Part shown: one piece after another, positions 55,401-60,845 of the stretch
Layout: each line of letters begins with the position of its first letter
How positions within the stretch are numbered: the stretch's first letter is position 1
Assembly (NCBI RefSeq): GCF_036373705.1
Contig: NC_089867.1
Coordinates: forward strand, 20,951,823 to 21,015,822
From: Amia ocellicauda
Lineage: Eukaryota > Chordata > Actinopteri > Amiiformes > Amiidae
Direction: 5' to 3'
Length of the DNA: 64,000 nucleotides
Made by a program: the position numbers and the translations under genes
Notes under the pieces: generated by a model
What the model saw: the letters and a program-made list of their open reading frames with translations, nothing else
What the model was told of the DNA's origin: nothing
Database searches by the model: none

Positions 55401-58400
55401 GGAAGGAGAGTGTAAGTGACCTTTTCAACTTCTTCGTCTCTGTCAGAAAAAACTTACTTTTTTGCTGATTGTTCTCCAACTGGGAGACACTTCCATGGCA
55501 CATTCCACAAAATCCATAGTGAACGAAAGGTCGTATCAGTAAATCTATGATTACCCAGATATTGTGCCTGCTCTCAGGTGGAGTTTGTTTTTCCTCTCGA
55601 CAGTGGGGTCTGGAACGTGCCGTACATCACCAGCCTGTACCTCATCAAAGGCAGCGTCCTGAAGACCGAGCTCTCGGAGAAAGACCTTTTCAATTCTGCT
55701 AATCTGGACGCTGACATGGCTTTCTGCCACACTGTGCGAAACCAGGTCTGTACTTTGTGGCAAACGGTAATTTAATCTGACATACCACACGGAAGGAATG
55801 GATTAGACAAGATAGTTGTTCCTGACTTGCTGACTACACTAACTACACCCTTTAGTATCCTCTTTTCTTCGGAGTTGCAGTTACTGCTATGGCTTTGTTA
55901 CTCTATATAGTAAAATGGATGAAGGCTGCTGCAATTGACCCTCCGGTGATTTGTACATTATTTTTAAAGACTTCTATAGCCCAGTACAGTGAGACCTTCG
56001 AAAATGTTGTGATTCCATCTTCCTTATTTTACCACAGGGAGTCTTCATGTATATTACCAACAGACATCAGTTTGGACGCATACTTTCCACAGAAAACTAC
56101 CAGACCTCTCACCTGCACAATGATCTCTGGCAGATCTTTGAGAACCCCATGGTAAGGATGACGGAGTCTCCGATAACCTGTCTCACTTCACTTCTGTCTC
56201 AGCTAGAGCCAATTTAAAAGGAAAGCTTGGTTGCCAGTTGTTGAACTGCCTGCTCTCACCTTTTGTGTCTCTTCCACTGGACTAGGACTGGGAAGAGCGA
56301 TACATTCATGAGAACTACAGCCGGATCATGAAAGACAACCTGATAGAAACGGTGAATATCAGTCCTGCACTGCTTTTGTGCTTCTCCGGTTTATATTGCA
56401 CACACACTTTTTAAGGAAAATTACCACATTTCTCTGTTAAATATTTTTCAACTGTATTGATTTATTTTCACATTTCAAGTAGTAGAAACCTCTACATAAC
56501 CATTGGGATCTTTTCAAAACTCAAAGCTTTAATGACATTAAATTACAGATATACAACAATTCACTTAATCTATATATTAAGCAACATTAAGATTTTCTGT
56601 AGCCAAATGACTAGACATAACCTAAAAGTGGGTAACTCTGTTTAATGGCTTTAAAGTACTTCATGGGTAATATGATTTATATTCTAGGAGTCGGTAGGTA
56701 TTCAGTCTATCTCCTTATAATGTATCTTTGTTTCCACAGCCATGCCCTGATGTTTACTGGTTTCCTATAATGACTGATGTTGGCTGCAACCACCTTGTTG
56801 AAGAAATGGAAAACTTTGGGCAGTGGTCAGGGGGTTCCAATTCGGTAAAGTTTAATATGGTTAATTCATGTTAATCTGAACCTGTAACATTGTACCAGGG
56901 GCGTAATATATGTGCCTTCTGGGAAAGGTTGGCATGATTTATGCTGCTTATACCAGCAAATTACTTCACATTAAATGGCTGAAATGTGAAGACTGTATTA
57001 CTGTGGATCTAAAAAGACGTGCAAATTAGAAAATTGCTCCCAGCCTGAGATATTCATGTTGAGGCTTTATCTTTTTCTGTCCAGGACACTCGGATCCAAG
57101 GTGGTTATGAAAATGTGCCGACGATAGACATCCATATGAATCAGATTAATTACGAGAAAGAGTGGCATCAATTTTTGCTCGAGTACATTGCTCCGATCAC
57201 AGAGAAAATGTACCCTGGATATTACACCAAGGTAAGCACAGGAAATGGTTAAATCCACAATTAAATGCATGTAATGAAGTCACCATCTATGGATTATAAC
57301 CGCATTTACAATTCACATTTCTGACAGAAATTACAGTGGCAAGCTATAATAAATGCTCTAGTATAAAATGCATTTATTTAGCTCATCCCCTGTGTAGAGA
57401 AGATCCCCCCTCTTCCAGTATGTAGTAGTTTATTCATGTGACCTGAGGTCAAAGCGTTGATAAATACAGGTTCGTCTCAAAACAAAGTGTCAGTGTATTT
57501 CAGTTGCACAGGACCAGAGCATCAATAAAAGCTTTCCATAATGAAATGTTTGAATGTTGAAATACTAGATGGCACTTCTTATCCTCCTTTATCAAATGCA
57601 TCTTATATTAAAGAATTTCTAGACAGTCTCATTGCATATGTGATCAAATGAATGAATGTTATTTTGATGTTTGTAGTAACTGTAATTTTCTAAAGTGTTT
57701 CCCAGCCAGTGTGCCTTCAGACATGAACCTTTTTTTAAGACACAAAAAGAAAAAAAACAACAACAGATGTCTCATTTAGTTAAAGTAAATATGTTCCTGT
57801 CAGAATTGAACAAATATAGAAATCTTCACTTCATACAGGGATGGAAAATAATAGACCTAATGCCTCAATAATAATCAATCTTTATTCAGAGAGCTGATAC
57901 TGCTGTGCCAAATGCAGCGTTGTGATGCAATGCACAATTGTGTTAAATCCAGTAGTTTACAAAGTGATTTTAGGCCCAAACACAGGCCTGAACCCCAACC
58001 CCAGCCAACACCAAGATGTAAAGACGCCCATTCAAATCTACACCTCAGAAGTCAGTAGAAAATCAAACCTAACCCTAACAAACGTCTGCGTTTACAGAGG
58101 GATTGAAACCTAACCCTAGTCCAGAGCAAGATGTAACTAATAACTCATGTCAACTCTTAACTGTAAATGTTACTGTTTAAGTGCATAATTAAACTAGATT
58201 ACTATAAATAATGCTCTTGAAATGACGTAAATGTAACTGTAAGACCATTCCTACCTTCACCATATCCCTAATTTAACATTCGCTTTGGAAAACCTGTTGT
58301 GGTTGCTGACCCGAGTTTCTTCTTTTGGACAGTGTACCTCTTACCTGAACTTTGTGGTGAGGTACAAACCCGACGAGCAGCCGCTGCTCGCTCCCCACCA

Positions 58401-60845: not shown

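Follow-up and report, generated by a model that had tools for sequence, protein, structure and literature searches.

Mutually exclusive, tandemly duplicated exons are a known arrangement in vertebrate genes. The examples described in two surveys (PMC5740500; PMC9741552) are adjacent and homologous, equal in length and phase, and align without gaps; they are also constrained at the protein level, with one of the two exons present in the product. The exon pair reported here, 18a and 18b of the lysyl hydroxylase gene PLOD1, has all of these features, the one-of-two product being found in a relative. In ketohexokinase (KHK), as excerpted from PMC9741552, the exon that is exchanged belongs to the active site, and either form retains the catalytic residue, as in PLOD1, although KHK belongs to another enzyme family and its pair is annotated in human. 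Alternative splicing in the lysyl hydroxylases, with reported Fox-2 control, is represented by the PLOD2 exon called 'exon 14' in the excerpt of PMC11108786; that exon is a cassette (skipped or included), whereas PLOD1 has a pair of homologous exons. Both surveys start from human annotation, while the PLOD1 pair seems lost towards mammals, and the word 'PLOD' occurs 0 times in their main text (PMC9741552; PMC5740500). A literature search over titles and abstract openings gave no such PLOD1 exon pair among the matches listed. The PLOD2 alternative exon, which we take to be exon 13A, lies elsewhere in the protein than 18a and 18b. The PLOD1 pair is thus apparently a new, and apparently old, case of a known kind, one that surveys built on human annotation would miss. 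Two things set it apart: there are two iron ligands in the segment that is swapped, and the pair seems to be ancient, with a loss towards mammals.

The window, the whole stretch of 64,000 nucleotides of Amia ocellicauda DNA that was analyzed, contains a PLOD1 gene on its forward strand. The gene was located by tblastn with a human PLOD1 query, and the boundaries of its 17 introns were set by a script that demanded GT and AG. Eighteen canonical coding exons were obtained, covering residues 26-727 in human numbering, and a TAA stop lies directly 3' of position 60842. The first coding exon was not found by tblastn with this query. The features of the pair and its surroundings are as follows.

45465..60842, + strand, PLOD1 gene (tblastn with human PLOD1; GT/AG boundary script)
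57085..57231, + strand, exon 17, upstream neighbour, donor AAG/gtaagca (tblastn and boundary script)
58333..58458, + strand, exon 18a, alternative copy, 42 residues (orthologues P0001-P0004, P0026, P0096, P0105)
58459..58698, + strand, GT-AG intron of 240 nt between 18a and 18b (243 nt in P0096, 219 nt in P0105)
58699..58824, + strand, exon 18b, canonical copy, 42 residues (tblastn)
60690..60842, + strand, exon 19, downstream neighbour, with the third iron ligand and the C-terminus (tblastn and boundary script)

The human PLOD1 query matched 18b at 86% (residues 634-676) and 18a at 73% (residues 639-679, running three residues into the intron); judged by this match, 18b is the canonical exon. 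The gene was identified as PLOD1 rather than PLOD2 or PLOD3 by its exon-by-exon match to the human protein, by separate PLOD3-like (C20) and PLOD2-like (C7) loci in the same genome and by its DUF2152 neighbour. In total, the genome has four matching places: 18a, 18b, PLOD3 and PLOD2. PLOD2 and PLOD3 each carry one exon 18 in the stretches examined, which for PLOD2 was a part of the gene that includes exons 17-19.

An earlier note on this DNA had described two exons of 126 nt, 240 nt apart, in the same phase and aligning without gaps, and this proved exact to the base, the phase being 0. Exons 18a and 18b agree at 30 of 42 residues and at 79 of the 126 nucleotides (tblastn E = 9e-18). Their 42 codons divide into 12 identical, 18 synonymous and 12 non-synonymous pairs; in the 11-residue stretch that the note had singled out, eight codons differ synonymously, as it had counted, and three are identical. 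Nei-Gojobori analysis gave a saturated pS of 0.89 and a pN of 0.23. Since the synonymous sites are saturated, recent conversion of 18a from 18b is ruled out. No second match of another PLOD1 exon was found in the window at E ≤ 0.001 (19 exons: 2-17, 18a, 18b and 19), the 18a/18b pair standing alone; this result and the tblastn E value rule out chance similarity. The contrast between pS and pN alone could be explained by constraint on 18b only, and relatives of 18a were therefore required.

At least seven other database proteins (P0001-P0004, P0026, P0096 and P0105) carry an 18a orthologue, making eight rows with the window. A protein search with 18a gave four matches, each an 18a-type exon read on into the intron. 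A profile search with 18a plus exon 19 gave 432 proteins, at least three of which carry 18a (among the best 120 of 432). In P0096 and P0105, 18a, the intron and 18b are all in one frame. The motif QPLLxPHHD is present in 8/8 18a rows; in the rows of 18b and mammalian PLOD1 its first L is replaced by F, S or Y. All five 18a rows that reach the exon start have C1 and N6, and K37 was found in 8/8. When the three sequences that contain both exons were compared over columns 10-42, the pairwise differences were 2, 3 and 2 for 18a vs. 2, 5 and 5 for 18b; constraint on 18a is thus at least as strong as on the canonical exon. In each of the seven genomic 18a copies the residues after DYQ are V-N or V-K, implying A at donor positions +4 and +5; past the donor the flanks are mostly dissimilar, with short runs common to a few rows. 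The long preservation of the protein that the earlier note had proposed is borne out by the saturated pS, the low pN and the conservation of 18a in at least seven other sequences. The note had also staked its reading on 18a being unbroken in relatives, and 18a is intact in the same sequences. A pseudo-exon is ruled out by at least seven orthologues with 18a-specific residues and by the spliced-looking P0026. A search of genome_contigs gave no match, and a search of viral_contigs gave one uninformative viral locus at 57% identity. As a separate observation, the inter-exon intron of P0096 and P0105 is open and in frame with both exons, while the window frame is closed by a stop near 58642; the open intron may be without meaning, because reading by frame favours the detection of such cases.

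We then turn to the products. P0026 (125 residues, from a 1776-nt contig, 5 member sequences) reads continuously through exons 17, 18a and 19 without 18b, and covers positions 5-101 of the 101 of the 2OG-FeII_Oxy profile PF03171. The natural reading is that P0026 represents a spliced transcript, the product expected from one-of-two splicing. P0026 is one protein cluster known from protein sequence, and an intronless retrocopy would give the same picture; a retrocopy origin would itself imply derivation from a spliced mRNA. P0026 thus bears out, in another animal, the idea of 18a standing between exons 17 and 19 instead of 18b. P0027, which bears the name Ameca splendens PLOD1, runs through 17-18b-19, and the Danionella protein P0032 through 18b-19; these two show 18b and have no bearing on 18a, and the 17-18a-19 and 18b-19 joins come from different animals. 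A pattern scan of 145 proteins, a small set among the matches listed, found neither an 18a-18b join nor skipping of both exons (17-19). As the earlier note had pointed out, including both exons would stay in frame (126 nt each, divisible by three, phase 0). Double skipping would also keep the frame, and exon lengths and intron pose no block to either. The two exons are adjacent and homologous, of the same phase and compatible length, and both are conserved as coding exons across species, which are two of the properties of the class. On this evidence, 18a and 18b are likely, in our view, to form a functional pair of mutually exclusive exons, duplicated in tandem within PLOD1. One mRNA would take 17-18b-19, probably the default with its strong splice sites, and a second would take 17-18a-19; both would encode a complete catalytic core. 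We infer that the choice between them is regulated, and the same applies to its means and purpose.

The strength of the splice sites was estimated with a simple matrix of human frequencies, which scored 18a at 4.8 (donor) and 3.5 (acceptor), and 18b at 8.5 and 9.2. Compared with the 17 canonical PLOD1 introns, the 18a donor is better than 12 and the 18a acceptor better than 2. The sites are therefore usable, and the 18a acceptor is weak. Given the higher scores of 18b at both sites, the gene probably uses 18b by default, with recognition of the 18a acceptor as the probable limiting step. Candidate control elements in the intron between the two exons are listed below.

58644, + strand, candidate branch-point A for 18b (yTnAy scan)
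58655..58661, + strand, TGCATGT (UGCAUGU, RBFOX-type), candidate only, located 44 nt upstream of 18b and 197 nt downstream of the 18a donor
58670, + strand, second candidate branch-point for 18b (yTnAy scan)

The two branch-point candidates are separated from the 18a donor by 186 and 212 nt, distances at which steric exclusion is unsupported. None of the known enforcing devices (steric spacing below 50 nt, U2/U12 clash, frame shift) was found, the U12 pattern being judged by eye. According to the excerpt of PMC5740500, no such device is required for mutually exclusive exons; its human survey counted steric distance in 57 clusters (9%), U2/U12 clash in five (0.79%) and lengths not divisible by three in 60%. 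Given these shares, the absence of devices at 18a/18b is not unusual. The 240-nt intron showed no distinctive RNA structure (z -0.57; 54 of 200 shuffles fold as well).

Three readings compete with mutually exclusive use. If 18a were a cassette used together with 18b, the protein would be extended and would contain the half-site twice; such a product might be inactive or dominant-negative. Equal lengths of 126 nt in phase 0 would keep such double inclusion in frame, and the distances of 186 and 212 nt leave no steric block; however, P0026 is without 18b, and the pattern scan of the 145 proteins, a small sample, gave no double-inclusion form. We regard the cassette as unlikely. P0026 also largely refutes a decaying or unused copy whose sequence has survived through chance or through a recent conversion by 18b: the weak 18a acceptor, better than only 2/17, fits such a copy, but 18a occurs in the spliced-looking P0026, its specific residues are conserved in at least seven orthologues, and the saturated synonymous sites between the copies speak against recent conversion. 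This explanation appears highly improbable.

P0026 could also come from an animal in which the exons are divided between PLOD1 paralogues, P0026 being the 18a-only gene, and the window 18a may then be used differently. In the half of the 18a clade to which it belongs, no row is more divergent than the P0026 18a (terminal branch 0.21), and P0026 is known from its protein. Against this division, P0096 and P0105, from other animals, have both exons in one gene like the window, and the matches in the window genome are confined to the four places given above. Such a division seems to us quite improbable. We retain the reading of a mutually exclusive pair.

To place the duplication in time, an IQ-TREE analysis was run on 45 chosen exon rows with 42 columns, for which the program warns of few columns. 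The 18a rows form one clade (98/92) inside PLOD1 (96/86). Fish 18b is placed with mammalian PLOD1 at 84/88, a support that the program does not count as firm. Because the 18a clade falls inside PLOD1 and fish 18b with mammalian PLOD1, the duplication probably predates the split of fish and mammals. N6 and K37 are common to 18a and the vertebrate PLOD2/PLOD3 rows of the tree, and A6 and V/L37 are found in 14/14 rows of 18b and mammalian PLOD1. In the simplest order of events, PLOD1 would first have split from PLOD2/3, and exon 18 would then have duplicated; A6 and V/L37 would have arisen in the ancestor of 18b, after which ray-finned fish and mammals diverged and 18a was lost towards mammals. 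The duplication thus probably took place after the split of PLOD1 from PLOD2/PLOD3 and before that of ray-finned fish and mammals, with later loss of 18a towards mammals. A tree with 18a held with PLOD3 was not rejected (p-AU 0.198), and the proposed order is therefore likely, not proven. To our knowledge, judging from human PLOD1, mammals are without 18a.

The 42 residues encoded by either exon make up one and the same part of the C-terminal hydroxylase domain, and they include the HxD motif, which supplies two of its three iron ligands. That each exon carries the iron-binding HxD was already stated in the earlier note, and H22 and D24, as well as the 2-oxoglutarate tyrosine Y11, are invariant in 8/8 18a rows. 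Exon positions were converted to human LH3 residues by adding 645. In LH3, Tyr656 belongs to the 2-oxoglutarate pocket, His667 and Asp669 bind iron, and Thr672 and Phe673 belong to the dimer pocket (PMC6082870, in excerpt). The equivalents of all five are invariant in the rows compared (eight of 18a and 14 of 18b/PLOD1). Differences fixed between all 18a rows and all 14 18b/PLOD1 rows are at LH3-equivalent positions 646-649 and 651 at the exon start, 663, four residues before the HxD histidine, and 681 and 682 near the end. In simulations of LH3 with a second iron, the capping loop of one monomer makes contact with residues 643-648 in its partner (PMC9453210, in excerpt). As the first three exchanged residues (646-648) fall within this stretch, the exon swap may tune gating or substrate entry at the dimer interface, and could alter substrate or partner choice. 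An AlphaFold model of P0026, built from an alignment with 31 further rows (mean pLDDT 66, pTM 0.58), was judged too weak to add anything.

Within the reading of a mutually exclusive pair, we examined whether RBFOX could be the switch. RBFOX at the UGCAUGU of 58655 would repress 18b and promote 18a, and 18a would be the muscle/neural form; we hold this as a possibility on the doubtful side. The exact TGCATGT follows branch-point candidate 58644 and precedes the acceptor of 18b, with candidate 58670 downstream of the motif. An RBFOX motif upstream of an exon favours skipping and one downstream favours inclusion (PMC5840707, in excerpt), and by this position rule the single site could do both; its distance of 197 nt from the 18a donor, however, is outside the 10-80 nt given in the same excerpt. 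The intron translations of P0006, P0096 and P0105 permit TGCATG 30-42 nt before 18b, that is 3/4 of the fish-type rows with at least 45 nt read, at a chance of about 0.09 each; P0005 and P0008, with intron reads of only 27 and 12 nt, are outside this count. On the other side, the translation of P0007 is incompatible with TGCATG, codons and not bases are known for the relatives, and P0006 and P0105 look closely related. TGCATG occurs 31 times on this strand of the 64 kb, so that about 0.12 would be expected in 240 nt, and four times in the gene span, the other three at 50379, 57266 and 60086. A title on Fox-2 control of lysyl hydroxylase 2 splicing (Seth and Yeowell, 2010, as cited by PMC11380049) adds a further point in favour. 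The RBFOX site as a switch between 18a and 18b is suggestive only.

LH1, the PLOD1 product, hydroxylates lysines of the collagen helix, and what determines the substrate range of lysyl hydroxylases is called unclear in the excerpt of PMC13382579. An old, natural swap of 42 residues that keeps all the named catalytic residues and alters a small, fixed set of others would make gating and substrate choice directly testable. A fuller picture, which we offer speculatively and think rather unlikely in all its parts together, is that early bony vertebrates had two LH1 enzymes from one gene by a swap of the HxD exon. The 18a form, with the LH2/LH3-like N6 and K37 lost by canonical LH1, would lie against the gating loop of the partner and would be switched on by RBFOX in muscle or nervous tissue. 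Mammals would have lost 18a, and mammalian LH1 would for that reason be a reduced version of an older two-form enzyme.

Some further observations concern the surroundings of the gene. Two large exons on the minus strand (38316-40737), adjoining PLOD1, match DUF2152 (PF10222), which we take to be the family of KIAA2013, presumably the same PLOD1 neighbour as in human. The large PLOD1 intron at 48109-52280 contains, on the plus strand (48808-49848), a transposase open frame of 346 residues with HTH_Tnp_Tc3_2 and DDE_3 domains, presumably of the Tc1/mariner type. An open frame of 396 residues on the minus strand (28721-29911) has a short HNOBA match on its C-terminal side (23.8 bits, cut-off 23.4) and looks like part of a guanylate-cyclase-type receptor. 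Elsewhere in the same genome there are four Hox clusters, a number that speaks against a teleost and makes the host probably a non-teleost fish: a search with the HOXA13 homeodomain found only four 13-type genes (83-97% identity), one each on C3, C7, C10 and C22, where a row of Hox matches ends with the 13-type gene.
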